A stretch of 64,000 bases of DNA from positions 496,001 to 560,000 of the forward strand of contig NZ_UFTA01000002.1 in NCBI RefSeq assembly GCF_900445265.1, in the 5' to 3' direction. Source of the DNA: Anaerococcus octavius. GTDB taxonomy: Bacteria; Bacillota; Clostridia; Tissierellales; Peptoniphilaceae. The position numbers were made by a program, and so were the translations under genes. This document shows positions 3,490-21,296 of the stretch, piece after piece (the first letter of the stretch is position 1; each line of letters starts with the position of its first letter). Under the pieces are notes generated by a model. It was not told the origin of the DNA and ran no database searches. It saw only the letters and a list, made by a program, of their open reading frames with translations.

Positions 3490-3519
3490 TGTCTAAATAA
3501 TTACAGTGAGAGGGAAAAG

Positions 3520-3753: not shown

Positions 3754-3754
3754 A

Positions 3755-4063
3755 ATGGAAAAACTAAACGATTATATTATAGATCCTTGTTATGATATGT
3801 ATATTGACCTAATTAGTGAGATGGGAGAAGATATTGTCTATAACTCATCATCAAGAGAATTTGAAGATGGTGAGGTTATAATAACATTGTGCGAGGGGCT
3901 ACCTAGTGTGTATTTAAAATCAGATGGAAATAAATTAATTATGCAAATGCACATTCTAGCTACTGGGACTGTATCCACTACAGATATAACAAATCTTGAT
4001 AAAATAAAAGATGTAATACCTGAAGTTATAGCAACAATGTATGATGAAAATATTATTATATAG
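3755..4063 (+). CDS. Hypothetical protein, 102 residues
   Basis: An acidic alpha/beta protein (MEKLNDYIIDPCYDMYIDLI) with a central strand-rich part (GEVIITLCEGLPSVYLK). GCGGAGG precedes the ATG, inside the end of the upstream gene. No family is recognised. It is the last gene before a strong terminator and closes the left accessory operon. Confidence 0.6.
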   Translation: MEKLNDYIIDPCYDMYIDLISEMGEDIVYNSSSREFEDGEVIITLCEGLPSVYLKSDGNKLIMQMHILATGTVSTTDITNLDKIKDVIPEVIATMYDENIII

Positions 4064-4071
4064 AAAAATTG

Positions 4072-4095
4072 GAGCAAGGAATTCCTTGCTCTTTT
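4072..4095 (+). terminator. Rho-independent terminator
   Basis: A perfect 20-base palindrome GAGCAAGGAATTCCTTGCTC (4072-4091) is followed by TTTT. It ends the small-gene operon. Confidence 0.75.
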
Positions 4096-4342
4096 CATAT
4101 TGTGGTTAGTTTCAAGTTATATTTAGGTATAAATCAATCTTTTCTAATATCTTATTTAGTTTCTTGAATGGTCATGCTTCTCCTCTAATTTTATATAAAT
4201 ACAAACAAAAACTAACATTAAATACTTGATTATTGGCTATTATTATGCTTATTATTAAGGATTTACTGGATTTGGAATATTTTTATATCACATTTCTACA
4301 TAATTTACTTAGCTAGATAAGATAGGAGAGGTGTAAAACAAA

Positions 4343-4429
4343 ATGCTTATATTTACTAGTTTAATAACTATTGTTTCAAATTTTTATACCTTCTACCTTT
4401 TATTTAAGAACTCCAATCTAATATTTTGA
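4343..4429 (+). CDS. Small hydrophobic peptide ORF
   Basis: ATG 4343 is preceded by AGGAGAGGTG and opens a 28-residue frame beginning MLIFTSLITIVSNFYTFYLL, one probable membrane helix with a short polar end. Size, hydrophobicity and isolation resemble type I toxin peptides such as the TxpA/BsrG or Fst groups, but I see no convincing family match and no obvious antisense RNA. It could be a chance ORF. Confidence 0.3.
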   Translation: MLIFTSLITIVSNFYTFYLLFKNSNLIF

Positions 4430-4697
4430 TGATGACATTTGATGACTTTTTATATTATATAGATATCGATATACTCTATAAGTAATACCATAAAAAAATA
4501 TAATCTAAACATCTATAGTTTATCATACGCAAAATCTAAGAATATAGATTTATGTGAGCTAGACTGATTTTATCATATAAGAGATAGATGAAAAGAAGAG
4601 ATTGACTAAATAATATCATATATAATAAACTTAAATATTTTATTAGTAAATTGTCGGTATATAGTAATAAGTAGTATATAACATTCATGCTTAGTTT

Positions 4698-4724
4698 GAG
4701 TTGGTTAATGGCTAGCTCTTTTTT
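4698..4724 (+). terminator. Terminator-like hairpin
   Basis: GAGTTGG and CTAGCTC form a 7-bp stem with G-T pairs around a 7-base loop, followed by TTTTTT. No annotated gene ends here, so it may close a small RNA or the small-peptide transcript. Confidence 0.45.
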
Positions 4725-4734
4725 AATGTTAAAG

Positions 4735-4769
4735 ATTCATATAATATATATTTTATATATTATATGAAT
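4735..4769. repeat. Perfect 16-bp inverted repeat upstream of the antitoxin gene
   Basis: ATTCATATAATATATA (4735-4750) and its exact reverse complement (4754-4769) flank TTT. It lies 88 bp before the Panacea gene and contains no poly-T tail. A protein-binding operator or an RNA hairpin in the leader is plausible. Confidence 0.6.
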
Positions 4770-4856
4770 ACAAAATGAAATGGAATAGTATTTAAGTTTA
4801 TGATAATATACAAGTAAATAGAGGAGAAAGTTTCTTTCAATAAATAGGGGGATAAA

Positions 4857-5300
4857 ATGACTAGTATATTTGATGTAGTTAATTACATTTTAAGTAAAAA
4901 TGGAGAAATGACTTCGATGAAACTTCAAAAGCTGACCTACTATTCTCAAGCGTGGAATCTAGCTTGGGAGGGGAAACCTTTATTTGACGAGGAGTTTGAA
5001 GCATGGGCTAATGGTCCGGTTTGTAGTGAATTATTCAGAGTTCACAAAGGTCAATTTATCGTAAATAAAGAAATTTTTGAAGATTTTGGAGATGAAAATA
5101 ATTTAAATAAAACCGAAAAAGAGAATATTGATGAGGTTTTAAAAACTTATGGCGATAAAGAGCCTTACTGGTTAAGTAACTTAACACATATGGAAAGGCC
5201 TTGGAAAGAAATCAGATTAAAAAATAATTGTAAAGATGGTGATTTTTGTAATGAAATCATACCTAAAGATTTAATGCAAGAATATTATGCTGGGTTATAA
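4857..5300 (+). CDS. Panacea-domain antitoxin (PanA/SocA-like)
   Basis: A 147-residue protein with the Panacea (DUF4065) signature over most of its length: MKLQKLTYYSQAWNLAWEGK, then PLFDEEFEAWANGPVCSELF. This domain is a versatile antitoxin domain that neutralises many unrelated toxins, and is also known from phage GepA and from Caulobacter SocA. AGGGGG precedes ATG 4857. The stop codon overlaps the next gene's start (TAATG), the hallmark of a two-gene toxin-antitoxin operon. I infer a direct neutraliser of the downstream product, possibly also repressing its own promoter through the inverted repeat at 4735. Confidence 0.85.
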   Translation: MTSIFDVVNYILSKNGEMTSMKLQKLTYYSQAWNLAWEGKPLFDEEFEAWANGPVCSELFRVHKGQFIVNKEIFEDFGDENNLNKTEKENIDEVLKTYGDKEPYWLSNLTHMERPWKEIRLKNNCKDGDFCNEIIPKDLMQEYYAGL

Positions 5301-5758
5301 TGGCTAAAAGGGTTAAACAAGGCGGAGAGCCATCATTATATAAAAAAACACGTGTTGCTGAAAGTCCAGATGCATTTTATGATAAAAATCCTTCTTGGAA
5401 TTTACACAAATGCGATAAAAGCGGTGGGAGTTGGTGTGTAAATCATTCTGTATTAAATGATGATATTTATAAAAAATTAAGTGATTTTGAAAGAATGACT
5501 TGGAAAGAGATTGTTAAACAAACTGGCGGACCTAAAAAAGGGACCAATAATCATTTTATTGGTTTCAAAGATCTTGATAAAAAGGCCCAAAATAGATTAA
5601 TAAAACTAAATTTAGTAAACTTATCAGATAATCTATTTTCTCTTAGGCTTAATGGAAGAACTAGATTATTTGGTTTTCTAGATGAATCGGGTATTTTTAG
5701 TATACTGTGGTTGGATAAAAATCACGAAGTTTGTCCGTCGATAAAAAAGAATACTTAA
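5300..5758 (+). CDS. Putative toxin paired with the Panacea antitoxin
   Basis: A 152-residue basic protein whose ATG shares a base with the antitoxin stop. The N-terminal 45 residues are polar (AKRVKQGGEPSLYKKTRVAE). The core has a conserved-looking MTWKEIVKQTGGPKKGTNNH segment. The C-terminus is a beta-rich run, FSLRLNGRTRLFGFLDESG, followed by FSILWLDKNHEVCPS. The strand pattern and the Arg/His-rich end recall RelE/ParE-fold ribonuclease toxins, but I cannot place it in a named family. Position and overlap strongly support the toxin role; the mechanism is inference. Confidence 0.65.
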   Translation: MAKRVKQGGEPSLYKKTRVAESPDAFYDKNPSWNLHKCDKSGGSWCVNHSVLNDDIYKKLSDFERMTWKEIVKQTGGPKKGTNNHFIGFKDLDKKAQNRLIKLNLVNLSDNLFSLRLNGRTRLFGFLDESGIFSILWLDKNHEVCPSIKKNT

Positions 5759-5836
5759 TAATAAATATAAAAAGCATTTTAATAAAGTAGTTTATAATTT
5801 GTATCATAACTTAATTATGTTCAATATAGAATGATT

Positions 5837-5864
5837 AGGGTCACTAATATGTGACTCTTTTTTT
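5837..5864 (+). terminator. Terminator of the toxin-antitoxin operon
   Basis: AGGGTCAC and GTGACTCT form an 8-bp stem (one G-T) around TAATAT, followed by a run of seven T (5858-5864). Confidence 0.75.
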
Positions 5865-5867
5865 GAA

Positions 5868-5907
5868 CTTATATATATTAGGTATATCTTATATATATTA
5901 GGTATAT
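5868..5907. repeat. Two tandem 20-bp direct repeats
   Basis: The unit cttatatatattaggtatat occurs twice head to tail (5868-5887 and 5888-5907) without mismatch, directly after the terminator. It could be a binding site for an integrase, initiator or regulator. The nearest genes on the right are regulators. Confidence 0.65.
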
Positions 5908-6010
5908 AAAGATATGGAGTTCTATTTTAAATAGCTTATATCTTAAAATATAGAGATTGATTATTGAAACAAAAAGAGAATATACCAATAGAGATGAATT
6001 AGATCCAATT

Positions 6011-6424
6011 TTATTCCCGTAACTCTCGTATAACTGATAATTCAGAATCTATTTTTTCAAGTATCCTGTTTTCTCTCCTGTATAGGGTAGATTTGGTAGT
6101 ATATAAATGGTTTGCTAGTTGTCGCTTGCTAATTTTATTATTTCCATGCATATTTAACAACAATTCGATTTCATCATTTTCTAATGACTGTAAGGCTGAT
6201 TCTATGGTATCTATAAATACCTTATCTTTATACATTTCAGCATTTAAAATTTTAATTCTACAATCTAAATCTTCAACTTTTTTTATAAAATTTGGGTCTA
6301 TACTTTCCTGATCGATATCGTTCTTTATTTTTTCTAAATATGTAGCTTGATTTGATAATGCTTCTTGTTCTTTTTTTATTTTGATGTACTTCTTAATTTC
6401 TTTTCTGGTTTGCTCTATACTCAC
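6011..6424 (-). CDS. ArpU/RinA-like phage transcription regulator
   Basis: A 137-residue protein. Residues 1-90 form a long charged coiled coil (MSIEQTRKEIKKYIKIKKEQ). The C-terminal 45 residues carry a sigma region 4-like helix-turn-helix (KRQLANHLYTTKSTLYRREN). This layout is typical of ArpU-type late-gene activators of Gram-positive phages. The start is GTG at 6424 with an excellent AGGAGG upstream on the minus strand. It is divergent from the ribbon-helix-helix and sigma-like genes, across a 417-bp gap, and is the only complete minus-strand gene in the island. Confidence 0.65.
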   Translation of the reverse strand: MSIEQTRKEIKKYIKIKKEQEALSNQATYLEKIKNDIDQESIDPNFIKKVEDLDCRIKILNAEMYKDKVFIDTIESALQSLENDEIELLLNMHGNNKISKRQLANHLYTTKSTLYRRENRILEKIDSELSVIRELRE

Positions 6425-6841
6425 TTAGACCTCCTAACATTTGTTATCATGGAATTACAATAGTAAAGAATTGTAGATACAATCAGTAATCTATATTCTC
6501 TAAAGTATATTCAAGGCTAATTATTATATCGGCTATTACCCTAGTAACAATATAAAACGCCCTTAAATCTCAAAATAAGCTCCTTAATATTATAGATACT
6601 ATCTAAAAAACTCAAAAATAGTGTATAATATACAGTAAAATACATTGGCTTGAAATAGGCGTTATCATAATTAATGTAAGTCAATAATTACACAAAAGAA
6701 TCATTTTGTGCAATAATTGTTAGTAAATAATAAGAATTGTGTATATTATACCATATAGATGAATGATAATTTTTGTCCTACTTTTATTATTTAGTGTTAT
6801 CATATAAATAGATAGCTACTAATTATTAGGAGGATAAAACA
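6425..6841. other. Divergent intergenic region, 417 bp
   Basis: It separates the ArpU-like gene (minus) from the ribbon-helix-helix gene (plus). It contains several -10-like TATAAT strings, for example in tgtataatatac near 6620, and the imperfect inverted repeat at 6682-6719. No further ORF of note is seen. It probably holds both promoters and their operators. Confidence 0.5.
6682..6719. repeat. Imperfect 16-bp inverted repeat
   Basis: caataattacacaaaa (6682-6697) and ttttgtgcaataattg (6704-6719) pair at 14 of 16 positions around GAATCA; the innermost seven pairs are perfect. There is no T-run, so an operator or origin-like structure is more likely than a terminator. It lies 120 bp upstream of a ribbon-helix-helix gene. 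Confidence 0.5.
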
Positions 6842-7048
6842 ATGACTAATCTAGATGACATAAATAGCAATAAAGTAGGTAGACCATTTTTACCAAGAGA
6901 TGAGAGAAAAGACTATAAGATTACAATTAGGGTTGATAATGAGCTTAAGAAAATGATTGATGAACTAGTAGATAGTAAGAATCTATCAAGGGCTGAATTA
7001 TTTAGAAAAGCTATAGAAGAATACTCTATCAATCATAAAGAAGAATAG
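6842..7048 (+). CDS. Ribbon-helix-helix (CopG-like) DNA-binding protein
   Basis: A 68-residue protein with the ribbon-helix-helix pattern in residues 24-64: a strand (DYKITIRVD), helix A (NELKKMIDELVDSKN), the LSRAELFRKAIEEY helix B. The N-terminus has a GRPFLPRDERK segment common in plasmid and conjugative-element RHH proteins. TTAGGAGG precedes the ATG. It is 25 bases upstream of the sigma-like gene. I infer a small repressor or copy-control protein, possibly acting on the inverted repeat upstream. Confidence 0.75.
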   Translation: MTNLDDINSNKVGRPFLPRDERKDYKITIRVDNELKKMIDELVDSKNLSRAELFRKAIEEYSINHKEE

Positions 7049-7073
7049 TAAGTTCTCTTGATTGGAGGGCAAT

Positions 7074-7826
7074 TTGGAGCAAGCAATCTCTTATGATAAC
7101 AATATAGATCTATTTAAAGAATATCAGAAAACAAAATCTATTAGATTAAGAAATGAAATAGCATTAAAGAATAAGAAATTAATTTATATTGGAATGAAAG
7201 GCTTGTATAGCTCTAATGCAAATGACATTGAAGAACTGGAGCAAGAAGCCTTTATTTGTCTTCTTAAGGCTGTAGAAACATTTGATGTTAGTAAAGGCTT
7301 TAAGTTTTCAACATATGCTATTAGTTGTATCAAAGCTATTACTAGAAATAGATTAGATTATAGTATAGATTTATCTCTTGATGAGCCTATTCAAAATCAA
7401 GACGGAGAAAATCTATCGATGGTCGACACTCTAGAAGATGAAAGGGTAGACATTGAGAGTGATTGCGTAGATAGATATAATCGAAATCGATTTAAATAAA
7501 TACTAACTAAAGAGGAATACAAGGTCTTAGATATGTTTTATATTAAGGAGATGTCTATGAAATGTATAGCCCAAAGTTTAGAATTTACTACTGGTAGGGT
7601 GCAAAATATAAAACATAATGCGGAGAAAAAGATTTATAATTCAAAGTACTTTCAGGATTATAGAGAAGAAGCTTTATACTATGATGAGATTATCTATATA
7701 AAAGCTTATGACTATTCAAGCCTTAAAGTTCAAACTTCTAATATTTCAAATCCTGTACTAGATACAGTTTTAAAATTAGAAAAAAGAGATAATGATATAT
7801 TTAAAAATGTCTTATTAGGAAAATAA
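7074..7826 (+). pseudogene. Sigma-70-like factor interrupted by one in-frame TAA
   Basis: One continuous frame runs from TTG 7074 (GGAGGG just upstream) to 7826 with a single TAA at 7497-7499. Before it lies sigma region 2: EELEQEAFICLLKAVETFD, then KFSTYAISCIKAITRNRLDY. Immediately after it, in the same frame, ILTKEEYKVLDMFYIKEMSM begins region 4 with the helix-turn-helix KCIAQSLEFTTGRVQNIKHN. Both halves are well preserved and no frameshift is needed. It is therefore a recent nonsense mutation, a sequencing error, or a gene needing read-through. The intact protein would be about 250 residues and probably drove transcription of the element's own operons. Confidence 0.75.
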
Positions 7827-8399: not shown

Positions 8400-9533
8400 A
8401 TGAGAAACTCAAATAAAACCGCAGCAATGTTATTAGCCGGTGGACAAGGTTCAAGGTTAAAGGCATTGACAAAAGATATGGCAAAACCTGTTGTACCTTT
8501 TGGAGGAAAATACAGAATTATAGACTTTGCTTTAAGTAATTCAACTAATTCAGAAATAAAAGATATAGGTGTCTTAACTCAATATAAGCCACAACTATTA
8601 AATCGCCACTTAGGCATAGGTTCAGCTTGGGATTATGATAGAAATCATGGTGGTCTACGCATCCTTTCTCCTTATTATACAGAAGAAGGAGGAAAATGGT
8701 TTGAAGGTACTGCTAGTGCTATCTATGAAAATATAAATTATCTTGACCAAGTAGATCCAGAATATGTTTTAATTCTTTCAGGCGATCATATTTATAAAAT
8801 GGATTACAGGAAGCTTTTAGATATCCACAAAGAAAAGGGAGCTGATGCTACTATAGCTGTTATGGAAGTTGATTGGGAGGAGGCAAGCCGATTTGGTATT
8901 ATGAATACTGATGAAGATGGAAGGATAACTGAGTTTGAAGAAAAGCCAGAAAATCCAAAATCTAACCTAGCTTCAATGGGTATCTATGTTTTTAATTGGA
9001 AAGTTTTAAGAAAAGCATTGATTGAAGATAATGAAAATCCAGAATCATCTAATGACTTTGGTAAAGATATTATTCCAAAAATGCTAAACGATAACCAACC
9101 GCTCTATGTATATAAATTTGATGGTTATTGGAAAGATGTTGGAACTGTTAGAAGCTACTGGCAAGCAAATCTTGATTTGATAAATCCAAACAATGAGCTT
9201 GGTATATATGATGAAGATTGGAAAATATATACAACAAGTTTAAATTTGCCACCACATAGAATTGGCGTAAATGGTACACTAAATGATGCTTTAGTTAATG
9301 AAGCATGTGTAATAGATGGAAAAGTAGATGATTCTGTTTTATTTTCTAATGTAACTGTAGAAGAAGGAGCTGAAGTTTATAATTCTGTTTTATTAAATGG
9401 ATCAAAGGTAAATGCAGGATGCAAAATTTATAATTGCGTTGTTGCAGAAGATATAGAAATAGCAGAAGATATTGGACAAAGTGGTACTGACAAAGTTTAT
9501 TTGGTAAGCTCTGAAGGTATCGAGGAGGAGTAA
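8400..9533 (+). CDS. glgC: Glucose-1-phosphate adenylyltransferase, catalytic subunit
   Basis: A 377-residue protein that makes ADP-glucose and PPi from ATP and glucose-1-phosphate, the committed step of glycogen synthesis. Visible motifs are the nucleotide-binding loop [20 protein letters not shown], the [11 protein letters not shown] segment and [10 protein letters not shown], followed by a C-terminal left-handed beta-helix of hexapeptide repeats. I chose ATG 8400 because AGGAGGG is directly upstream; the longer in-frame start at 8271 would overlap the ssrA promoter. It leads the operon and is one base from glgD, its regulatory partner. Confidence 0.95.
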
Positions 9534-9534
9534 T

Positions 9535-10659
9535 ATGGATAATATTTTAGCATTAATATATAGCTCAGAATTTAATCCAGCTGATTATGGGGAATTATGC
9601 AAGGTAAGGCCTGATTATATGCTACCTTTTGCTAGTAGATATAGGATTATCGACTTTACATTATCAAACTTAACTAACTATGATATAAGCAATGTGATTT
9701 TATATGCTGGAAATAAAATGCGTTCTACCCTAGATCATATAGGTGATGGACGTAGCTGGGAATTAAATAGAAGACGTGGAGGACTGACTATTAATCCTCC
9801 AAATTATGATATTATAAACCCAACTGAAATAGAAACTTATTTTGATACTATTAGAGCCTTTGAAAATAATAATGCAGAATATGTTTTTATTACAAATCCT
9901 ATGTATATCAACAAAGTTGATATAGGAGATGCCAAAGAACGCTTAAAAACAGAAGGCAGGGATGCATTAATTTTTACTAAAAAAACTGAAGATAAAGATG
10001 GATTTTTCTTAAATCGTAAGATAATTAATTCTAGTGAAGATGGCAAGCCAATTAGTGCTGGGTTAAATTTAGGAACTAGTGATGAATTTGATCTATTTGC
10101 TGGCTCTATAATTATTAAAAGAGAGATATTTTTGAGAGTATTAAGATATGCAGAAGAAAAAAATAGTATAACGACTATGCTAACAGCTATTTTTGAATTT
10201 CCAGAAGACCTAGACGTTGGTTTCTATAGAATAGATAATCAATTAGAGATCATTATGGATACTTATTCTTTCTTTGATGCTAATCTTAAATTATTAGACA
10301 GAGAGTACTTCAATAATTTATTTTATAAAGATGGACTTGTTTATACAAAATCTAAAGACGAACCATCTACTTCCTATACAAAAGATAGCAAAGTTAAAAA
10401 TTCTTTGGTAGCAAATGGTGCAATAATTGATGGAGTAGTAGAAAATTCTGTAATATTTAGGGGAGTAAGTGTTAAAAAGGGAGCTGTAATTAAGAATTCT
10501 GTTATTTTCCAAGATAGTGTAATAGGGGAAGAATCTATATTAAACTTTGTAATAGCAGAAAAAGGTACCCAAATAGGAAAAAATGTAAAACTATTTGGAA
10601 ACAGATCTCATCCATATGTATCAAGCAAAAATGAAATTTTAGAGGAATGGAGTTATTAA
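9535..10659 (+). CDS. glgD: Glucose-1-phosphate adenylyltransferase, GlgD regulatory subunit
   Basis: A 374-residue paralogue of GlgC. It keeps RPDYMLPFASRYRIIDFTLS and the C-terminal hexapeptide helix, but lacks the GGQGSRL nucleotide loop. This is normal for GlgD, the non-catalytic subunit that activates GlgC in Firmicutes. GAGGAGG precedes the ATG. The stop overlaps the glgA start (TAATG), implying translational coupling. Confidence 0.93.
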   Translation: MDNILALIYSSEFNPADYGELCKVRPDYMLPFASRYRIIDFTLSNLTNYDISNVILYAGNKMRSTLDHIGDGRSWELNRRRGGLTINPPNYDIINPTEIETYFDTIRAFENNNAEYVFITNPMYINKVDIGDAKERLKTEGRDALIFTKKTEDKDGFFLNRKIINSSEDGKPISAGLNLGTSDEFDLFAGSIIIKREIFLRVLRYAEEKNSITTMLTAIFEFPEDLDVGFYRIDNQLEIIMDTYSFFDANLKLLDREYFNNLFYKDGLVYTKSKDEPSTSYTKDSKVKNSLVANGAIIDGVVENSVIFRGVSVKKGAVIKNSVIFQDSVIGEESILNFVIAEKGTQIGKNVKLFGNRSHPYVSSKNEILEEWSY

Positions 10660-12089
10660 TGAACATTCTTTATCTAACTGGGGAAGCAGTTCCATTTATA
10701 AAAACAGGTGGACTTGCAGATGTAGCAGGCTCTCTTCCAAAAGAACTTATAAAACTTGGTTGCGATATAAGAGTGGTATTGCCTTTATTTTCGTCAATAG
10801 ATGAATCTTACAAGGCAAAAATGGAAAAAATCACCGAATTTTATGTAGACCTTGATTGGAAACATCAATATGCTGGTGTTTATGGCTTAGAGTTTGATGG
10901 GATTAAATATTATTTTATAGACAACCTTGAATATTTTGATCGTGAGAATCCTTACGGATACGATGATGATGCAGAAAGATTTATATTTTTTTCAAAGGCT
11001 TGTACACTATTAGGAAAAGAAATAAACTTTAAACCTGATATTATCCACTCAAATGACTGGCATACAGCAATGGTAAATGTATTTGTAAATGATTATAGGC
11101 GTGGAGATAGCTATTATGATGATGTTAGAACTCTATTTACCATCCATAATTTAAAATATCAAGGTGTTTTTGATCCTGAATATTTACGATTAGCAGGATT
11201 AGATGGATCATACTTTAATGAGAATGATTTAAAGTTTTATGATGCAATAAACTTTATGAAAGCCGGTATAATTCACGCAACTGCTGTAAATACAGTTTCT
11301 GAAAATTATGCTAGAGAAATACATTATCCATTTTATGGAGAGGGTCTTGATGGAGTGATTAGACAATATGATTATAAACTTTCTGGCATAGTAAATGGTA
11401 TAGATTACTCAGAATGGAATCCAGCTACTGATCAAATGATTGATCAAAATTATGATATAAATTCAATAGATAAAAAAGTTTTAAATAAGCTTGCTATTCA
11501 AAAGCTTTATGGATTGCCAGAAAGAGAAGATGTTCCTATGATAGGACTTGTTTCTAGGCTAAATGAGATGAAGGGGATGGATCTTATCCGCTTCATTTTA
11601 GAAGAACTCTTACAAGAAGATATACAATTTGTACTTTTAGGAACAGGTGATTATACATACGAAGAAATGTTTAAATATTTTGCTTGGAAATATCCGGAAA
11701 AAATGGCAAGCAGGATTTATTTTGGAGGAGCAGAAGCTCATAAAATATATGCTGCAAGTGATTTTTATTTGATGCCATCTATATCCGAACCATGTGGTAT
11801 TAGCCAGTTAATTGCCATGAGATATGGTACTTTACCGATAGTTCGTGAAGCAGGAGGATTGAAAGATACAGTTATTCCATATAATGAGTACACAGGAGAA
11901 GGAACTGGATATTCATTTTCAAATATAAATGCCCACGAACTTTTATTTACAATAAAAAATGCTATAAGTATATATAATAATCAAGAATCAGATCATGAAA
12001 GATTGATAAAAAATGCTATGAGCCAAGATATAGACTGGAATATGTCTGCAGGTAAATATTTTAAATTATATGAAAATATACGACCATAA
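10659..12089 (+). CDS. glgA: Glycogen synthase (ADP-glucose, GT5)
   Basis: A 476-residue glycosyltransferase that extends alpha-1,4-glucan from ADP-glucose. It has the KTGGLADVAGSLPKEL sugar-nucleotide loop near residue 15, the GT-B linker region, and the C-terminal SEPCGISQLIAMRYGTLPIV motif with its conserved Glu. The start is ATG 10659, overlapping the glgD stop, with GGAG six bases upstream. The ATG at 10647 is less likely because it lies within glgD. Confidence 0.93.
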   Translation: MNILYLTGEAVPFIKTGGLADVAGSLPKELIKLGCDIRVVLPLFSSIDESYKAKMEKITEFYVDLDWKHQYAGVYGLEFDGIKYYFIDNLEYFDRENPYGYDDDAERFIFFSKACTLLGKEINFKPDIIHSNDWHTAMVNVFVNDYRRGDSYYDDVRTLFTIHNLKYQGVFDPEYLRLAGLDGSYFNENDLKFYDAINFMKAGIIHATAVNTVSENYAREIHYPFYGEGLDGVIRQYDYKLSGIVNGIDYSEWNPATDQMIDQNYDINSIDKKVLNKLAIQKLYGLPEREDVPMIGLVSRLNEMKGMDLIRFILEELLQEDIQFVLLGTGDYTYEEMFKYFAWKYPEKMASRIYFGGAEAHKIYAASDFYLMPSISEPCGISQLIAMRYGTLPIVREAGGLKDTVIPYNEYTGEGTGYSFSNINAHELLFTIKNAISIYNNQESDHERLIKNAMSQDIDWNMSAGKYFKLYENIRP

Positions 12090-12090
12090 A

Positions 12091-14337
12091 ATGAAGACAA
12101 ATAAAGATACTATTATTGAAAGAATACAAAATTATTTGTATTCTTTTTATGCTAAAGATATAAAAACTGCTAGAGATAATGAAATATATGATTGCCTATG
12201 CAGATACTTGATGGAGATTGTAGGTAAAAACTGGGTTGATACAAAAAAGATAAAAGAAGGCTATGAAGTTTATATTCTAAGCTTTGAGTATTTACCGGGT
12301 AGGTTTTTGACAAACGCTATCTACAAGTTAGATTTAAAAGAAGAAATAAAAGAAGCTTTAAATGAGATGGGATTTTCCTATGAAAAAATTACAAGCCTCG
12401 ATAAAGAACCTGCCCTTGGAATAGGAGATATGGGTATGGGTTCGGCCTATCTTATAAATGAACTTTCCAATAAAAAAATAAAAGCAACAGCCTACGCTTT
12501 ACGCTATGAATCAGGTAATTTTAAGCAAGTTATAAAAGACGGTATGCAGACAGAAGAATCTTCATCTTGGCTAAAATATGGATCAAATTGGGAACATAAA
12601 AAGTCTTTTACAAACGAAATTGAAATATATGGTAAAAAACACAAAACCGTTACCTATGATATGCCAGTAATTTCCGATGATGCAAGCTTTATAAATACAC
12701 TTAGGTTATTTAAAGCAGAATCAACAAAAGATATAAATATTAACAAATTTTCTAAAGGCGACATTATAGACGCTTATGATGATTATATAGAAAATAGTTC
12801 TATAACAGAGTTTTTGTATGTAGATGACTCAAGCTATGAAGGCAAAATTCTAAGGCTAAAACAAGAATATTTTTTTGTAGCGTCAGCAATGAGAGATTTT
12901 GTTCGTAGATATATTCTGTATTATGAAAATATAGAGCATATAAAAGAACAGACAAATGTAATAATAAACGATATACATCCTACACTAGCTCTTATAGAAT
13001 TTATAAGTATTCTAAGAAATGACTATGATTTTTCTATAAAAAAATCTATAGACTATACTAGGGAGATTTTCTACCATCTTGCCTTTTCTGTAACAGATGA
13101 TTCTCTAGAAAAGTATCCAGTAGATGAGATAAGAAAATTAAATGAAGAAATATTTATTACCATAATGGACGTTCAAAATGAGTTGACTGGTGAAAACAAT
13201 TATTTACCATTTGTAGAAGATGGATATGTAATATTTAAAAATATAAATCTTGCCCTTAGCAAAGACTATTTATTTTTATCAAAAATATTAGCAGAAGATA
13301 AGATAGCCAGCAAAAAATATATAAATCTAGGTACAGATAGGCTAATATATGCTAAAAGTGCAAATGAAGACCTAGTAAATTATTTAAAAAAATATGATAT
13401 AGATTTTACAGATTATAATAGTTTAAAAAATATCGAAAAATATATAGAGGATAAAAATTTTTTAAATGAACTTGAAGATATTAAATTTAAAAATAAAGAA
13501 AGATTGATAAGGTCATTAGCAAATAAAGAATCGGATATTAATCCATATTCGATTTTTGATATGCAGCTAACAATAATGCATGAAAGCAAAAGACAAATAC
13601 TAAATGCTCTAGCAATTGCTTATCAATATTATTATCTAAGAGATAATAGAAATGCTTATTTTATCCCTGTTACTTATATATTTTCTGGAAAAGCCAATGA
13701 AGGTTATTTTATGGCAAAGGAAACTATTAAGTTTATCTTAGCTCTTAAAAAACTTATTGAATCAGATAAAATAATCAGAAAAAAAATAAAAATTATATTT
13801 GTAGAAAATATAACAGTAGATGATTTAAGAAACTTATATCCAGCTTGTGATATTTATACAAATATAACACATCCGCTTTATGATAATCAAAATTTTGATA
13901 TATTAAATTCTATATTTAATATGGCGAATATAGTTTCAACTAGGGGAGGCATTGTAAATAATCTTAAAACAAAAAATGAGTTTTATTTATTAAATGATGA
14001 TTACAGAGTTTATAAAAATAGGAAAAATTTACGATCTTATAAGGCAAATGATATTATTTATCAAAATCAAGTAGTAAAATATACAATAGATAATTTGTTA
14101 AAAGAAAATCAACGAAATCTACCATATGATTTCTCTAAGCTTTATAATGAGTTATTAGTTTACAATGACTCATTTGAAATATTTTTAGATTTAGAAAACT
14201 TAATTAATCTTAGAAAAATAAGTAGTTTTGACTATTTAAATAAAGAAGCTTGGGCAAAAAATGAAGTTCACAATATATTGTGGGCTAATGAATTTAATTT
14301 AGATCATATAAAAAGGAAACTTAGTTTTGATAAATAA
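12091..14337 (+). CDS. GlgP-family protein with lost catalytic residues
   Basis: The protein aligns end to end with glycogen phosphorylase (GT35): YILSFEYLPGRFLTNAI, RYESGNFKQVIKDGMQTEES, LRLKQEYFFVASAMRDFVRR and INDIHPTLALIEF all have direct counterparts. The active site is gone. The PLP lysine (rabbit K680, in GTGNMKFMLNGAL) falls at N606 in DILNSIFNMAN. The phosphate-binding K568-R569 pair (VKRIHEYKRQ) is T494-I495 in LTIMHESKRQ. H377 is replaced by F332, and the GLGNGGLGRLA loop is degenerate. At 748 residues it is close to family length and undamaged as an ORF. ATG 12091 follows the glgA stop by one base; 12070 is an alternative. No clear Shine-Dalgarno is present. A glucan-binding or regulatory role is likely. 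Confidence 0.8.
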   Translation: MKTNKDTIIERIQNYLYSFYAKDIKTARDNEIYDCLCRYLMEIVGKNWVDTKKIKEGYEVYILSFEYLPGRFLTNAIYKLDLKEEIKEALNEMGFSYEKITSLDKEPALGIGDMGMGSAYLINELSNKKIKATAYALRYESGNFKQVIKDGMQTEESSSWLKYGSNWEHKKSFTNEIEIYGKKHKTVTYDMPVISDDASFINTLRLFKAESTKDININKFSKGDIIDAYDDYIENSSITEFLYVDDSSYEGKILRLKQEYFFVASAMRDFVRRYILYYENIEHIKEQTNVIINDIHPTLALIEFISILRNDYDFSIKKSIDYTREIFYHLAFSVTDDSLEKYPVDEIRKLNEEIFITIMDVQNELTGENNYLPFVEDGYVIFKNINLALSKDYLFLSKILAEDKIASKKYINLGTDRLIYAKSANEDLVNYLKKYDIDFTDYNSLKNIEKYIEDKNFLNELEDIKFKNKERLIRSLANKESDINPYSIFDMQLTIMHESKRQILNALAIAYQYYYLRDNRNAYFIPVTYIFSGKANEGYFMAKETIKFILALKKLIESDKIIRKKIKIIFVENITVDDLRNLYPACDIYTNITHPLYDNQNFDILNSIFNMANIVSTRGGIVNNLKTKNEFYLLNDDYRVYKNRKNLRSYKANDIIYQNQVVKYTIDNLLKENQRNLPYDFSKLYNELLVYNDSFEIFLDLENLINLRKISSFDYLNKEAWAKNEVHNILWANEFNLDHIKRKLSFDK

Positions 14338-16207
14338 TTATAAAAATGTAACTTATAATGATATAAAAGATTATAAAATGGGAGCTATTTATAGTAAGGA
14401 TAAAACGACATTTAGAGTTTTTGCTCCTGAAAAAAATGTCAAACTTTCTATAATAAATGATTATAGAAATCCTAGAAAAAATATATATTCTATGAAACAA
14501 AATGACTGGGGTATTTGGGAGCTTACTTTAAATGGAGACTATGATGGATATTATTATTCATATATTGTAGATGACAAATATGAAGTGACCGATCCGTATT
14601 CTTTTACTAGCTCTATAAATTCTATGTATTCAGTAGTTTGTGATATGCAAAAGACAAATCCAGTAGGTTTTATAAACTCATCTGTTCCTCAAATCCCAGA
14701 AAATGAAGCTATCATTTATGAATTGTCTATCAAAAATTATACTGCCGATAAAACTAGCAATATAAAAAATGCTGGTAAATATTTGGGATTAACAGAAAAA
14801 AATTCTAGTTATCATGGATATAAAACAGGACTAGCTAATTTAAAAGAATTAGGCATTACTCATGTGCAAATTATGCCCTTTTATGATTTTATAAGTGTGG
14901 ATGAAAGTGATCAGAGATTTTTTGATGATGATAACTATAATTGGGGTTATGATCCAGAGTTATACTTTACTCCAGAAGGCTCTTTTGCAATTGATCCAAA
15001 TAATCCTAAGTCTAGAATAATAGAAGCAAAAAAAATGATAGATGCTATTCATTCTGAAAATATAGCTATAATAATGGACGTAGTTTTCAATCATACTTTT
15101 AAATCATATGATTCAAATTTAAATACTTTGGCTCCAAATTATTATTACAGGATGAATAAAGATGGTACTTTTTCAAATGGTTCTGGAGTAGGAAATGAAC
15201 TTGCTAGTGAAAAACCTTTTGTGAGAAAACTAATTATAGATTCTTTAAAACACTGGGTTAAAGAATATAAAATAGACGGATTTCGCTTTGACCTTATGGC
15301 ATTAATTGATGTGGATACTATAAAAATTTCTATAAAAGAACTTAGAAAAATTAATCCAAATTTAATTATTTATGGTGAACCTTGGATAGCTTTAGGCACG
15401 ACTTTGCCATATAAAAAACAAAGCTTAAAAGGCAGCCAAAGATCAAATGGATTTGGAGTTTTCAATGATACTTATAGAGATGCCATAAAAGGAGATACGG
15501 ATTCGTATGGCATTGGTTATATTCAAGGGAATTTTTATCTAAAAACTCAGATTGAAGAAGGCATAGCAGGGTCTATTTATTATGATGAAAAAAGAATGGG
15601 ATTTGCTGACTATGCTTCAGAATCAATAAATTATTTTAATTGTCATGATAATTTAATCCTTTATGATAAGCTTATAATATCTATAAAAGATTTAGAAAAT
15701 ATAGATAATTATATAAAGCTTGCCCTTACTTTAATTATGCTTTCTTTCGGTAAGCCTTTTTTATATGAAGGTAACGAGTTTAATCATAGCAAAAATAATG
15801 ATAGAAATTCTTACAATTCGCCATTGTTTATAAATGCGATAAATTGGCAAGAAAAAAAAGTGAATGTTGACATCTTCAACTATACAAAAAATCTTATAGA
15901 TCTAAGGAAAAGTTTAAAGGTATTTAATAAAGTAGATCCAGAGGATATTAGAAATAGTCTAACATTTATGAATAATATAGACGATTCGTTAATTATCTAT
16001 AAAATTAAGGCTGATGAAGGATATATATTAGTTGCTATAAATGCCAGTAAGGAAAATAAATATTTTGATAGCAAAGAGATAGGATGTTTTACTGGATATA
16101 GGGATTTTATTATGTATAAGATTTTTGACAAAAAGGGTAAATGTAATATTAGAAGTGTAGATTTAAATCTTGAAAAATTATCAGTTAATGTATACAAAAT
16201 TTATTAG
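14327..16207 (+). CDS. pulA: Type I pullulanase (glycogen debranching, GH13)
   Basis: A 626-residue enzyme hydrolysing alpha-1,6 branch points. The N-terminal ~110 residues look like a CBM48 domain (TTFRVFAPEKNVKLSIINDY). The GH13 barrel follows, with the pullulanase signature YNWGYDP, MDVVFNHT, nucleophile D322 in GFRFDLMAL, acid/base E351 in IYGEPW and D441 in FNCHDN. No signal peptide is visible, so it acts in the cytoplasm on stored glucan. TTG 14327 overlaps the preceding stop, with AAGGA upstream. It is the debranching partner in an operon that lacks a branching enzyme. Confidence 0.88.
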   Translation: MINNYKNVTYNDIKDYKMGAIYSKDKTTFRVFAPEKNVKLSIINDYRNPRKNIYSMKQNDWGIWELTLNGDYDGYYYSYIVDDKYEVTDPYSFTSSINSMYSVVCDMQKTNPVGFINSSVPQIPENEAIIYELSIKNYTADKTSNIKNAGKYLGLTEKNSSYHGYKTGLANLKELGITHVQIMPFYDFISVDESDQRFFDDDNYNWGYDPELYFTPEGSFAIDPNNPKSRIIEAKKMIDAIHSENIAIIMDVVFNHTFKSYDSNLNTLAPNYYYRMNKDGTFSNGSGVGNELASEKPFVRKLIIDSLKHWVKEYKIDGFRFDLMALIDVDTIKISIKELRKINPNLIIYGEPWIALGTTLPYKKQSLKGSQRSNGFGVFNDTYRDAIKGDTDSYGIGYIQGNFYLKTQIEEGIAGSIYYDEKRMGFADYASESINYFNCHDNLILYDKLIISIKDLENIDNYIKLALTLIMLSFGKPFLYEGNEFNHSKNNDRNSYNSPLFINAINWQEKKVNVDIFNYTKNLIDLRKSLKVFNKVDPEDIRNSLTFMNNIDDSLIIYKIKADEGYILVAINASKENKYFDSKEIGCFTGYRDFIMYKIFDKKGKCNIRSVDLNLEKLSVNVYKIY

Positions 16208-16216: not shown

Positions 16217-17911
16217 ATGGATTATAAAAAAAATTATGATTTATGGTTAAATAATGAAAAATTTGACGAAAAAACCCATAAGGAACTAGAAGAAATAAAA
16301 AATAATGATGAAGAAATAAAAGATAGATTTTATAGTTCACTAGAATTTGGAACAGCAGGTTTGCGTGGTAAACTCGGAGCTGGTACAAATCGTATGAATG
16401 AATATATGGTTGCCCAAGCTACACAAGGTTTTGCTGATACCATATCAGAAATGGGAGAAGATGCAAAAAAAGCAGGAGTTTCTATTTCATATGATGTACG
16501 TCACAAATCTGAAGAATTTGCAAAAATAACTGCAGAGGTATTTGCTGCAAATGGTATAAAAGTTTATATACACAAAGAAATTGAGCCAACACCAGTTTTA
16601 TCATATACAGTTAGACATCTAAAAACATCTGCTGGTGTAATGATAACAGCTAGCCACAATCCTATGGAATATAATGGCTACAAAGCTTACAATGCAGAAG
16701 GTAGTCAAATATTAGATGAAACTGCTGATAAAATATTAGGACATATTGAAGAACATCCAGATTTTTTTGAAATCTCACGTATAGATTTTGAAAAAGGTTT
16801 AGAAGAGGGAATTATAGAGTGGGTACCAGAAAGTGTAATAGAAGATTATGTAAAGGAAATATTAGCTTGTACTATAAATGAAGATATTGATAAGGATATA
16901 AATATTGTTTATACACCACTAAATGGCACAGGAAATAAATTAGTTCGCAGAATTCTAAATGAGCGCGGTTTTAAAAATATCCATGTAGTGCCAGAACAAG
17001 AAAATCCAGATCCTGATTTTACAACGGTAGGCTATCCAAATCCAGAAATGCCAGCTGCTTTTGAATATTCAGAAAGATTAGGTAAAAAAGTTAATGCGGA
17101 TTTATTGCTTGCAACAGATCCTGATGCTGATAGATGTGCAGTGGAAATAAATGATGGCAATGGAGAATTTGTATTTTTAACTGGAAATAAAATTGGTGCT
17201 TTACTTACAAACTATATTTTAGAAGCACTTGATAAAAATGGAGAATTACCAAAAAATGGTGCTGTTGTAAAATCATTAGTTACTGGAGATTTGATAGCAC
17301 CAATTTGTGAAAAATATGGAGTTAAAAAATACGATGTTCTAACAGGATTTAAGAATATCTTTGCAGTAGCGAATGAACTTGATAGAACAGGTGAAGGTAA
17401 ATTCATTTTTGGTTTTGAAGAATCAATAGGTTATAACTACAAAGATTTTGTTAGAGATAAAGATGCTGTAAATTCAGCAATGATGATAGCTGAAATGGCA
17501 GGATATTATAAAAAACAAGGTAAATCTTTATTAGATGTTCTAAATGATATTTACAAAGAACATGGATATTACTCAAATGATGTAATATCCATAACTCTTC
17601 AAGGTCTTGATGGTAAAGCGCGTATTGGTAGAATAATGGAAGAGTTTAGAAACAATCCATTAGAATCTTTAGCAGGTCTAGAAACAGTAAAAATCATTGA
17701 TTATAAATTAGATGAAACTGGATTGCCAAAATCAAATGTATTAAAATATTATTTTGAGGATGATTCATGGGTAGCAATTAGACCATCAGGAACAGAACCA
17801 AAAATAAAACTATATATAAATGCAGTCTCAAAAGATAACTTGGAAATAGCAGATAACAAAAAACAAAAACTAATCGATCAAATGCAAGAAATCATTGACA
17901 GTATAGAGTAA
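16217..17911 (+). CDS. pgcA: Phosphoglucomutase (phospho-sugar mutase)
   Basis: A 564-residue alpha-D-phosphohexomutase interconverting glucose-6-phosphate and glucose-1-phosphate, so it supplies GlgC. It shows FGTAGLRGKLGAGTNRMN, the phosphoserine loop ITASHNPMEYNGYKAYN, the metal loop ATDPDADRC, the sugar loop GFEESIGYN and the phosphate loop RPSGTEPKIKLY. Its length matches the Bacillus PgcA/YhxB type. GGAG precedes ATG 16217. It is the last gene of the glycogen operon and is closed by a strong terminator. Confidence 0.92.
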   Translation: MDYKKNYDLWLNNEKFDEKTHKELEEIKNNDEEIKDRFYSSLEFGTAGLRGKLGAGTNRMNEYMVAQATQGFADTISEMGEDAKKAGVSISYDVRHKSEEFAKITAEVFAANGIKVYIHKEIEPTPVLSYTVRHLKTSAGVMITASHNPMEYNGYKAYNAEGSQILDETADKILGHIEEHPDFFEISRIDFEKGLEEGIIEWVPESVIEDYVKEILACTINEDIDKDINIVYTPLNGTGNKLVRRILNERGFKNIHVVPEQENPDPDFTTVGYPNPEMPAAFEYSERLGKKVNADLLLATDPDADRCAVEINDGNGEFVFLTGNKIGALLTNYILEALDKNGELPKNGAVVKSLVTGDLIAPICEKYGVKKYDVLTGFKNIFAVANELDRTGEGKFIFGFEESIGYNYKDFVRDKDAVNSAMMIAEMAGYYKKQGKSLLDVLNDIYKEHGYYSNDVISITLQGLDGKARIGRIMEEFRNNPLESLAGLETVKIIDYKLDETGLPKSNVLKYYFEDDSWVAIRPSGTEPKIKLYINAVSKDNLEIADNKKQKLIDQMQEIIDSIE

Positions 17912-17947: not shown

Positions 17948-18018
17948 ATTGATTTTTATAATGTTCAAAAATAAATCATATGTGGTAAAATATATACAAA
18001 TCGTAAAGGATGGTTTAT

Positions 18019-18522
18019 ATGGAAAAATTTTTGAAAGCTGTTGATGATGTTTTTTCAGTACAAGTTATAGGAAATTTAACCCTATACCAATTATTTTCAA
18101 CAATATTAAAATACATATTTGTAATTGTGGTTTTTTACTTTATATATTCTATTATTAGAATTATTTATTATGATGTAAGGACTACCCTAAAAAAAGAACA
18201 AGAGTCAGACACTTATTTGAAATTATTAAATCGTAATGATGGCTTTAGGTTTATAGTACAAGAATATTATTTTATCGGTGAAGACAATACTATTGGTCGT
18301 GATGATAGAAATACCATTTGTATCAAGGATAAGTATTTATCCAAATTTCACGCCCGAATTATTCAAGACGAAGATATATATTTTTTAGAAGATCTAGATT
18401 CTGCCAATGGAACATTTTTAAATGACGAAAGAATAGAAGATGCAATTGAATTAAAATCAAATGATATTATCAATATAGGTCAATTGCAATTTTTATTTAT
18501 CCAAGGTGAAGATGATGAATAA
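18019..18522 (+). CDS. Membrane-anchored FHA-domain protein
   Basis: A 167-residue protein with one transmembrane helix (about 25-52, ILKYIFVIVVFYFIYSIIRI) and a C-terminal FHA domain (GEDNTIGRDDRNTICIKDKY, SKFHARI, LDSANGTFLNDERI), which binds phosphothreonine peptides. I start it at ATG 18019 with AAGGA upstream; ATG 18010 overlaps that site. It heads an operon with a FtsW/RodA protein and a class B PBP, as in actinobacterial FhaB-RodA-PbpA clusters. I infer that it links Ser/Thr-kinase signalling to wall synthesis. No kinase gene is in the window. Confidence 0.85.
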   Translation: MEKFLKAVDDVFSVQVIGNLTLYQLFSTILKYIFVIVVFYFIYSIIRIIYYDVRTTLKKEQESDTYLKLLNRNDGFRFIVQEYYFIGEDNTIGRDDRNTICIKDKYLSKFHARIIQDEDIYFLEDLDSANGTFLNDERIEDAIELKSNDIINIGQLQFLFIQGEDDE

Positions 18523-19774
18523 TATTATAGATGTAGAAAAAAAAGAGCAAAAATATATTAGAAAATCAATTTTTCTATTATTTATATTTTCTTTTTTAGC
18601 ACTTTCTCTTGCTATGATATTTAATATAGCAAATTTATCAGCAACTGATTTTTACACATATTTAGCTATCTTAATTGTAATAGTTTTATCAACTATACTT
18701 ACTCCAAAGATTACTAAGGCGGATAATATTTTACTGATGATAGTAAATATGCTATTTGCAATTGGTGTGGCTATGATATATAGGATAAATCCTTCATTTG
18801 GTAAAAGACAATTGCAGTTTTATTTAATAGGTATAGTCTTATTTTTCTTAACTTTTTTTATTTTAAGAACTTTTAAATTTTGGAATAAGATTAGCATATT
18901 TTATGTAATTGTTTCAGTAGGACTATTTATGGCTACATTAGTTTTCGGTTCCTACATTGGAGGAGCAAAAAACTGGATTGTTATAGGTCCTGTTACTATC
19001 CAACCATCAGAATTTATAAAAGTACCTTTAGCATTTTTTGTGGCAAGTTTTTATTCAAGATATAACGAAATATCTATGAAACCATTTGGCAGATATTATA
19101 TGAATATAGTTATTTATATTTTTATAGGCTTCTTATTTTTACAAAAAGACTTAGGAACAGCCCTAATATTTTTTGGACTAATGATACTTGCCCAATTTGT
19201 TTATGAAAAAGATAGGGTTTTAATTACCATAAATATATTAGCGATGATACTAGGCTCTATTTTGGCATATTTTATGTTTGGCCACGTTAGAATAAGGGTT
19301 GCTACATGGTTAGATCCATGGTCTGATATAAATGCTACGGGCTATCAAATAACTCAAGCTTTATTTGCAACTGCTAGTGGTGGATTATTTGGAACCGGAA
19401 TTGGTCTGGGACATCCAGATTACATTCCAGTTGCAGAATCAGACTTTATATTTTCAGCCATATCTGAAGAAATGGGTGTATTTATGGGGCTTGCTGTTAT
19501 ACTTTTATTTATGATTTTAGTTTATAGAGCATTTAAAATATCCTTAATTCAACAAGATAAGTTTTTTAGTATCCTAGCTTTTTGTATAGGAGTATTATTT
19601 GCTTTTCAAACATTTATAATATTAGGAGGAGTTTTAAAAATTATTCCTCTAACAGGTGTAACCTTGCCATTTATATCCCAAGGTGGATCATCCATGCTTT
19701 CTGGATTTATATTATTGGGATGTTTGCAATATTGTGCAAGTGACATCAAATATGGAGATGAAATAGATGAGTGA
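18515..19774 (+). CDS. FtsW/RodA/SpoVE-family glycan polymerase
   Basis: A SEDS-family integral membrane protein of about 420 residues with some ten hydrophobic helices. It carries GGAKNWIVIGPVTIQPSEF and VTLPFISQGGSSMLSGFILL, both diagnostic of the family. SEDS proteins polymerise lipid II into glycan strands with a class B PBP. ATG 18515 has AAGGTG at five bases; the start overlaps the FHA gene, and the 3' end overlaps the PBP gene by 8 bp, so the three are tightly coupled. Division versus elongation cannot be decided from sequence. Confidence 0.9.
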   Translation: MNNIIDVEKKEQKYIRKSIFLLFIFSFLALSLAMIFNIANLSATDFYTYLAILIVIVLSTILTPKITKADNILLMIVNMLFAIGVAMIYRINPSFGKRQLQFYLIGIVLFFLTFFILRTFKFWNKISIFYVIVSVGLFMATLVFGSYIGGAKNWIVIGPVTIQPSEFIKVPLAFFVASFYSRYNEISMKPFGRYYMNIVIYIFIGFLFLQKDLGTALIFFGLMILAQFVYEKDRVLITINILAMILGSILAYFMFGHVRIRVATWLDPWSDINATGYQITQALFATASGGLFGTGIGLGHPDYIPVAESDFIFSAISEEMGVFMGLAVILLFMILVYRAFKISLIQQDKFFSILAFCIGVLFAFQTFIILGGVLKIIPLTGVTLPFISQGGSSMLSGFILLGCLQYCASDIKYGDEIDE

Positions 19775-21296
19775 TAAAAATAATCGCAAAGCTAGCAAAA
19801 AAAGAGCTCCAAAAGAAAGTTTTATAGATAAAATAAAAAAACAAGAAGAAGAGCAAAGGATAAAAAATAGCCGAGAGCTAAAAGTTTTATCCAAATCGAC
19901 CTTGAATAAAAGATTACTTTTCGTAATGATTTTCTTTGTGATTTTGTTTATGGGACTTGCCTTATATTTAGTATATTTTGAGCTTTTTAAAGCAAAAACA
20001 ATAGCTAGCAATGAAAATAATCGTAGAAACTGGGTAAATGAGGAAAATATAGCTCGTGGTAAGATTTTTGATAAAAATGGTAATATCCTAGCCTATAGTG
20101 ATGTAGATGAAAATGGCAATCAAATACGCCATTATAATTATGGTAAAGCAGCATCAACGATTACTGGTTATACTTCTAAAACCTATGGTAAAACAGGCAT
20201 AGAGAAAACTTATAACAACTGGCTGTTAAATCTAAAAGATGAAAATATGAGTAATTTTAGAAAAATGGTAGTAACTAATGATGTAGGAAATGATCTTCAC
20301 CTAACAATAGATCAAAATATTCAAAATCTTACCTACAATTATATGAGTAATTATGTTGGAGCAGCAGTAGTTATGAACCCCAAAACGGGTGATATACTAG
20401 CAATGGTCTCAAATCCTACATTTGACCCAAATTATATCGATGCAAATTGGGATAATTTAATTGCAAATAATAATGGACCACTTGTAAATAGAACTACAAC
20501 AGGTTTATACAGACCAGGATCTACTTTTAAAATAGTAACAGCGAATGCTATACTAGATAGTAATATAGACCAAAATTATGAAGATACTGGCTCAGAATCC
20601 ATCCAGAACTTTGAAATTAAAAACTTTGATAACTTAGCCTTTGGTCACTTAGATTTAACAAAAGCCTTTATGTATTCTTCAAATACTTATTTTGCTAAAA
20701 AAACAACGGATATGGGCAAAGAAACTTTGATGAATATGACAGATAAGTATATGTTTAATAAACCATATCCATTTGATTTAGAAAAATATGATTCCGTTAT
20801 ACCTTATAAACAATTAAATCAAGCAGATCTGGCAATGACTGGATTTGGTTATGGAAAAACTCAAGCAACTCCACTTCATATGGCAATGGTAGCTTCAACA
20901 ATTGCAAATGATGGTGTTATGATGCAACCAAAACTTGTAAAATCTATTACAGATAAAGATGAAAAAAATGTTTATAAGGCTAAAGATGAAAAATTGTCGA
21001 TAGTAACTAGTAAAAGCAAAGCAAATACTATTAGAGATATGATGGTAGATGTAGTAAATGAGGGAACAGGTAAGGCAGCCTATATTGATGGTATACAAGT
21101 AGCCGGAAAAACAGGAACAGCTGATAAGTCAAATGGACTTATCGATGCTTGGTTTGTTGGCTTTGCGCCAGCCTATGATCCACAAATTGCAGTAGCCATT
21201 GTAGTAGAAGATGCAAATGATACTGGTGGTGTAACAGTAGCACCAATAGCTAGGAATTTACTGGTTGATATTTTTAACCAAGTAAACCTAAACTAA
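19767..21296 (+). CDS. Class B penicillin-binding protein (transpeptidase)
   Basis: A 509-residue membrane-anchored D,D-transpeptidase. A basic cytoplasmic tail of about 50 residues precedes one transmembrane helix (LLFVMIFFVILFMGLALYLV). The catalytic domain has S252 in RPGSTFKIV, SSN in FMYSSNTYF and KTG in VAGKTGTADKS. It lacks a PASTA domain. The organisation and gene context resemble PbpA of actinobacteria. It cross-links glycan made by the upstream SEDS protein. Its stop abuts the convergent nadK stop with no terminator between. Confidence 0.9.
   Translation: MSDKNNRKASKKRAPKESFIDKIKKQEEEQRIKNSRELKVLSKSTLNKRLLFVMIFFVILFMGLALYLVYFELFKAKTIASNENNRRNWVNEENIARGKIFDKNGNILAYSDVDENGNQIRHYNYGKAASTITGYTSKTYGKTGIEKTYNNWLLNLKDENMSNFRKMVVTNDVGNDLHLTIDQNIQNLTYNYMSNYVGAAVVMNPKTGDILAMVSNPTFDPNYIDANWDNLIANNNGPLVNRTTTGLYRPGSTFKIVTANAILDSNIDQNYEDTGSESIQNFEIKNFDNLAFGHLDLTKAFMYSSNTYFAKKTTDMGKETLMNMTDKYMFNKPYPFDLEKYDSVIPYKQLNQADLAMTGFGYGKTQATPLHMAMVASTIANDGVMMQPKLVKSITDKDEKNVYKAKDEKLSIVTSKSKANTIRDMMVDVVNEGTGKAAYIDGIQVAGKTGTADKSNGLIDAWFVGFAPAYDPQIAVAIVVEDANDTGGVTVAPIARNLLVDIFNQVNLN

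Follow-up and report, generated by a model that had tools for sequence, protein, structure and literature searches.

The glycogen operon of Anaerococcus octavius encodes, in the place between glgA and pulA (hereafter the slot), a full-length homologue of glycogen phosphorylase (GlgP, family GT35) in which the PLP lysine and the phosphate-binding pair have been replaced, and which is kept under clear purifying selection. The window we analysed is a stretch of 64,000 nucleotides (contig NZ_UFTA01000002.1, positions 496,001 to 560,000). Judging from its residues, it is implausible that the window protein anchors PLP as a Schiff base at the canonical position or binds phosphate through the customary contacts, and it has presumably lost phosphorolysis. 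As neither the PLP site nor the phosphate pair appears usable in the usual way, we favor a reading in which the slot protein descends from the operon's own working phosphorylase and now acts, without catalysis of its own, as a partner of the enzymes that break down glycogen, and we put the probability of this reading at about one half.

The genes run in the order glgC-glgD-glgA-slot ORF-pulA-pgm, all on the plus strand (Table 1), and their tight packing suggests that they are co-expressed; the 3' end of the slot ORF overlaps the listed TTG start of pulA. From position 12091 the slot ORF encodes 748 amino acids. An in-frame ATG at 12070, inside glgA, would give 755, and the start at 12091 falls just past the glgA stop and agrees with the starts of many relatives. 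GlgD returned no match to a nucleotidyl-transferase domain at a threshold of 0.001, and the operon may hold two degraded homologues of glycogen enzymes. The pulA product carries Asp/Glu/Asp motifs that appear intact by eye and that we take to be the GH13 catalytic motifs, and the name pgm is one that we presume from the sequence. The genome is 1.91 Mb in size and 99.6% complete, and all six named loci with matches at 46-74% identity come from Anaerococcus. In several relatives glgB lies 5' of glgC; none was seen in window positions 1-7826, and a GlgB-like match elsewhere in the genome (C1:329088, 43% identity) rules out the absence of a branching enzyme. By eye, the small ORFs 5' of the operon (1-7826) resemble a mobile element, and a DnaC-like ATPase (1756-2496) and a sigma-factor-like ORF (7062-7499) lie upstream of the operon.

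Table 1. Genes of the operon and altered sites within the slot ORF, in window coordinates
Feature	Position	Strand	Basis
glgC	8400..9533	+	ORF opens at TTG 8271; ATG 8400 chosen by eye where similarity to relatives begins; same order in relatives
glgD, homologue of the non-catalytic ADP-glucose pyrophosphorylase subunit	9535..10659	+	ORF list, domain search
glgA, glycogen synthase	10647..12089	+	PF08323, 276 bits
Catalytically degraded glycogen phosphorylase homologue	12091..14337	+	ORF list, PF00343, PDB sequence matches, AF2 model, fold matches
Codon of D113 at the rabbit G135 place (phosphate-contact glycine loop)	12427..12429	+	Alignments
Codon of F332 at the rabbit H377 place (sugar contact)	13084..13086	+	Alignments
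Codons of T494-I495 at the rabbit K568-R569 place (phosphate binding)	13570..13575	+	Alignments
Former PLP-lysine loop; 18/22 canonical-conserved columns lost in the genus	13855..13965	+	Alignment, limits hand-mapped
Codon of N606 at the PLP lysine K680 place	13906..13908	+	Alignments
pulA, pullulanase-type debranching enzyme	14327..16207	+	CBM48 and alpha-amylase domains
pgm, presumed phosphoglucomutase/phosphomannomutase-like	16217..17911	+	After pulA in relatives too

The slot protein matches PF00343 at 353.8 bits against a cut-off of 27, phosphorylases in the PDB match it at an E-value of 2e-78, and across the Pfam and PDB searches the homology is full-length, in two blocks. A phosphorylase fold is predicted for it, since its AF2 model matches phosphorylase folds. 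It misses the curated cut-off of the NCBIfam model TIGR02093, scoring 372.8 bits against 552.9. A preliminary description of this DNA, made from the letters alone, had called the ORF an intact frame between glgA and pulA encoding a full-length GT35 protein and had proposed structure prediction as a check, and it is borne out on these points. It had also described the cofactor site as aligning without gaps, which holds in the MAFFT alignment and agrees with that of HMMER, ruling out misalignment at this site, and the residues it placed at K680, K568-R569 and H377 are all recovered in the alignments. Rabbit residue numbers and roles are as we presume them to be and were placed on the slot protein by motif.

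These losses extend throughout the genus. Across 30 genus loci (L004-L033, L004 being that of the genome itself) the K680 position holds Asn in 28, Ala in one and His in one, E672 is replaced by Asp in every case, and K568, R569 and H377 are kept in none. The preliminary description had reasoned that an intact PLP site in a genus orthologue would point to decay confined to one genome; none was found among the 30 loci, own included. One more member of the genus (G003) has a broken frame.

The same region was taken from other genomes, and its neighbors were annotated with the window's proteins. Within the family of A. octavius, for which 130 genomes were searched, a degraded GT35 gene follows glgA in at least 14 genera and at least 52 genomes (by hand count, 31 of the genus and 21 others), and the same arrangement recurs in a second family of the order, in genera g10 and g82 (7 genomes). 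By hand count this amounts to at least 59 genomes, at least 16 genera and two families; these are lower bounds resting on the four or two best first-look candidates scored per genome, and more degraded copies may exist in the order or class. Five more genomes of the order with two matches (G090, G049, G161, G183, and G054) held no full-length second copy, and a 65-residue piece at a contig edge in G090 was left out of the count. The next gene after the slot is pulA in 57 of the 59 genomes, the sequence ending earlier in G004 and G225; for most genus members the view takes in the adjoining glgA and pulA rather than the whole operon. Slot frames are open in 55 of the 59, being broken in G003, G095, and G120 and, at the N-terminus alone, in G030. 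The broken copies (L038, L141, L147, and, at the N-terminus only, L032) may mean that the slot gene is dispensable and is being lost in some lineages, or that the assemblies contain errors.

Degradation of the slot protein is graded. Of the 14 residues that we take as the catalytic set, 13-14 are kept in 56 canonical rows (chosen by hand, plus every second eligible named locus), 2-3 in 29 genus rows and 0-8 in 26 other slot rows; the four loci with broken sequences were left out of residue and column counts, and L138, on the same contig as L055, was counted once. L146 keeps none of the 14. Lysine is still found in the K680 column in 11 of the 26 other slot rows, and it therefore did not disappear all at once. 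The phosphate-binding pair has been lost more widely, L130 and L131 alone retaining both of its residues, and the substitutions at catalytic sites vary from genus to genus. It is possible, if rather unlikely, that the least diverged genera still bind PLP or catalyze weakly, in which case the slot proteins would form a graded series rather than one pseudoenzyme, a view compatible with our best explanation. L130 and L131 speak for it, retaining K680, K568, and R569 and, in all, 8 and 7 of the 14 residues; however, both have Val at the R138 position and SLST in place of GTGN, and the idea is inapplicable to the window protein. With SLST beside the retained K680, K568, and R569, these two copies (L130:4224-6581 and L131:3697-6060) are possible natural intermediates between enzyme and pseudoenzyme. 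With slot copies that range from intact through partly to fully degraded, each stage in the rise of a pseudoenzyme can be put to the test.

The descent of the slot protein is indicated by two trees. In a tree of 62 rows the 26 slot rows group together as a single clade (SH-aLRT 96), which is joined at 100 with the intact phosphorylases that occupy the slot in two genomes from other families of the class (G384 and G310), each of which has a single GT35 match. A long-branch artefact was considered, as the branch of L146 measures 3.07 in this tree, and was rejected: a 36-row tree with seven of the 26 slot rows gave the same placement with more support (slot rows 100/100; with the intact slot phosphorylases 100/99), although it still has long branches (window row 2.34, L133 1.73). 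The family's other GlgP forms a clade separate from the slot rows in both trees, which rules out a recent duplication of that gene as their source. The trees show that the slot proteins share a common descent.

Of the 59 genomes whose slot copy is degraded, 57 have a second GT35 locus by hand count among the matches listed, although in G102 and G002 it is fragmented; no second GlgP was found in G085 (91% complete) or G004 (86% complete). Residue completeness is stated here for one of these second copies, that of A. octavius itself, which keeps 14 of 14 catalytic residues and follows a MalQ-like gene (named by eye); the canonical glgP whose presence elsewhere in the genome had been put forward as a check is thus there, with a complete catalytic set. 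Since the trees join the slot proteins to intact slot phosphorylases and a second GT35 is present, it appears that the operon's phosphorylase lost catalysis and its gene stayed, and we infer that the operonic enzyme became catalytically dispensable where a second GlgP existed. Another genus member, G014 (L037), has an additional GT35 gene, complete in its catalytic residues and adjacent to malQ-like and ABC-transporter-like genes, together with its slot copy and a further GT35 in fragments. Two glgP homologues have been reported in gut commensals, with no residue analysis in the part of the paper available (PMC10395257). Homology-based annotation would tend to name the slot gene a phosphorylase, as it passes the Pfam cut-off, and metabolic models built for Anaerococcus and related bacteria could list a pair of GlgPs of which one is dead.

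Branch-length covariation, computed on a fixed tree of 34 genomes and 65 branches, links the slot protein to PulA (rho 0.48, p 4.5e-5) and to the intact GlgP (rho 0.41, p 6e-4). No covariation was seen over the same branches with GlgA (0.07), GlgD (0.05), or GlgC (-0.01), and these were rejected as partners. Without the branches of G089, G035, and G082 the values are 0.46 for PulA and 0.43 for GlgP (61 branches), and in a set of 25 genomes that includes pgm they are 0.42 for GlgP, 0.30 for PulA (p 0.04), a weaker signal, and 0.02 for pgm; all of these were obtained from a small number of genes with numerous pairwise comparisons (15 and 21). Other gene pairs covary as strongly (glgD-GlgP 0.46, glgC-glgA 0.49, pulA-pgm 0.51), and the rho values are therefore no specific proof of contact. 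Tree length is 20.5 for the slot protein and between 5.9 and 14.4 for the other five, and since the slot protein and PulA are the two fastest genes, shared relaxed constraint could explain part of their covariation. We read the covariation as a link to glycogen breakdown. The preliminary description had put forward a glycogen-binding scaffold, an allosteric partner of GlgA or PulA, or a sensor as possible jobs; the covariation favors PulA, and with it the intact GlgP, over GlgA.

It is plausible that the slot protein goes back to a functional glycogen phosphorylase of the operon itself, in a lineage ancestral to this family and to one or more further families of the order. In this model, the second GlgP, which is MalQ-linked in A. 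octavius itself, could take over phosphorolysis, leaving the operonic copy to lose its PLP and phosphate pocket and to retain the phosphorylase fold, several glucan-side residues and its place between glgA and pulA. The slot protein would then bind glucan, or the intact GlgP together with PulA, or all of these, and may modulate or position these enzymes in the way that inactive GlgD acts on GlgC. The sharpest form of this explanation makes the slot protein a dedicated regulatory subunit, a dead operonic GlgP that uses the phosphorylase dimer surface to form a heterodimer with the intact enzyme (PulA perhaps joining) and lets that enzyme respond to signals or to expression of the operon. Covariation with GlgP, which is no genomic neighbor of the slot gene in A. 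octavius, is consistent with such a pairing, as is the wide co-occurrence of a second GT35, and an N-terminal segment (RIQ..LYSFYAK), which we take to be in the dimer region of phosphorylases, is conserved with few changes in 18 genus rows. However, the slot protein and the intact GlgP belong to separate phosphorylase clades, and two genomes have a slot copy and no second GlgP found, and we consider the subunit form unlikely. If it were true, the operon would code for two dead-enzyme regulators, GlgD for synthesis and the slot protein for breakdown, and expression of the latter would couple breakdown capacity to the synthesis operon.

Several known systems bear a likeness to a non-catalytic partner of this kind. 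The glgBCDAP-amy-pgm operon of Lactobacillus acidophilus, where deletion of glgP affected growth and bile phenotypes according to the accessible part of the report (PMC4282360), has a slot GlgP (GT35, EC 2.4.1.1) with the same operon order and fold as here. The intact slot GlgPs of two other genomes of the class are the nearest relatives among the rows compared. What sets the protein described here apart from a canonical slot GlgP is the loss of its PLP lysine and its phosphate-binding pair, together with the greater part of the cofactor loop. GlgD of Firmicutes is described, in the text available to us, as an inactive homologue that modulates GlgC (PMC9093745). The likeness is that a homologue of a glycogen enzyme has lost catalysis and is retained in the same operon, and our protein shares the trait of a degraded homologue under purifying selection beside pathway genes; however, GlgC is both neighbor and homologue of GlgD, whereas the intact homologue of the slot protein is encoded elsewhere in the genome of A. 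octavius and a partnership between them is our proposal. In plants ISA2 is non-catalytic, and ISA2 and beta-amylase 4 (BAM4) belong to the GH13 and GH14 families. ISA2 raises the activity of ISA1 within their complex, and BAM4 is termed noncatalytic in the title of a reference, both as given in excerpts of PMC12892837. These are likewise starch-enzyme relatives kept for supporting roles, but they are eukaryotic and come from other enzyme families. HPr, unlike the slot protein, is no homologue of phosphorylase. Its complex with GlgP in E. coli (PDB 9s8k, by the entry title) is a case of a bacterial GlgP bound to another protein. The available portion of a review of prokaryotic alpha-glucan enzymes (PMC11046441) gave no match for pseudoenzyme and describes no inactive phosphorylase paralogue. 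In the open-licence literature searched, as far as its texts were accessible, we found no dead phosphorylase in a glycogen operon and no described role for such a protein, in agreement with the preliminary description.

Selection on the slot gene was estimated by the Nei-Gojobori method over 30 genus pairs with amino-acid identity above 0.72, three of which involve L032. The median dN/dS is 0.094, compared with 0.053 for glgA (30 pairs) and 0.083 for pulA (26 pairs); many of the dS values are above 1 and approximate. This check, which the preliminary description had called for, makes purifying selection clear and, with losses common to all 30 genus loci, rules out local decay in one genome. 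Its suggestion of a pseudoenzyme retained for another job is supported by this selection, by the lack of an intact PLP site in the genus loci and by the complete GlgP elsewhere, with inactivity presumed from the residues. Slow pseudogenisation, with a redundant phosphorylase drifting to loss and held in frame only by tight operon packing, would fit the fast evolution of the slot protein, the four broken frames among the 59 genomes and the different catalytic residues lost in different genera, but is already disfavored by the median dN/dS, by the 55 open frames spread over two families and by the conserved columns that the genus retains, and we regard it as quite improbable.

Columns at least 95% conserved in the 56 canonical rows number 135; the genus retains 51 of them (in 90% of its rows or more) and has lost 57 (kept in 10% or less). 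Four active-site loops account for 38 losses in 57 columns, against 19 in 78 elsewhere (Fisher p 1.3e-6), a test that is descriptive rather than a discovery since the loop boundaries were set with the known catalytic motifs in view. The two domains are alike in the conserved columns kept (28/71 vs 23/64). Residues at the E88, R292, D339, H341, and Y613 places are kept in all 29 genus rows, and D339, H341, and Y613 are altered in some of the 26 other slot rows. Fixation is not significantly more frequent in former catalytic columns than in ordinary columns (18/56 vs 129/607, p 0.066), and re-fixation was rejected as proof of a new pocket. An enzyme with new PLP-free chemistry, such as a nucleotide-sugar glycosyltransferase working in the emptied cofactor pocket, might be read from the Asp at E672 (a conservative change), the Asn at A673 and the retained K574 in 29 of 29 genus rows and the Asn at K680 in 27 of 29, but the phosphate-binding pair has become Ser, Thr, or Ala and Ile, Met, Leu, Asn, or Val within the genus, substitutions vary by genus as would not be expected of a shared new active site, and GlgA of the operon already uses ADP-glucose, making this very improbable. 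Six of the eight conserved columns are lost at L001 353-444, which we take to be the storage-site region of mammalian enzymes, and with this stretch eroded the classical storage site has probably not remained intact.

Few enzymes have been studied as closely as glycogen phosphorylase, and with a dead one maintained by selection in a glycogen operon, the glycogen metabolism of bacteria would gain a new regulator or scaffold. By eye, ORFs of about 205 residues at L036:8621-9238, in the pulA/pgm gap of another genus, and at L226:2763-3386, just 5' of the malQ-glgP locus of A. octavius itself, share motifs, and may be one family tied to both glycogen loci. Downstream of pgm in the window (18010-21296) lie FHA-domain-like, FtsW/RodA-like and penicillin-binding-protein-like ORFs (named by eye), and similar ORFs are also found 3' of the operon in L055 and, in part, in L034.
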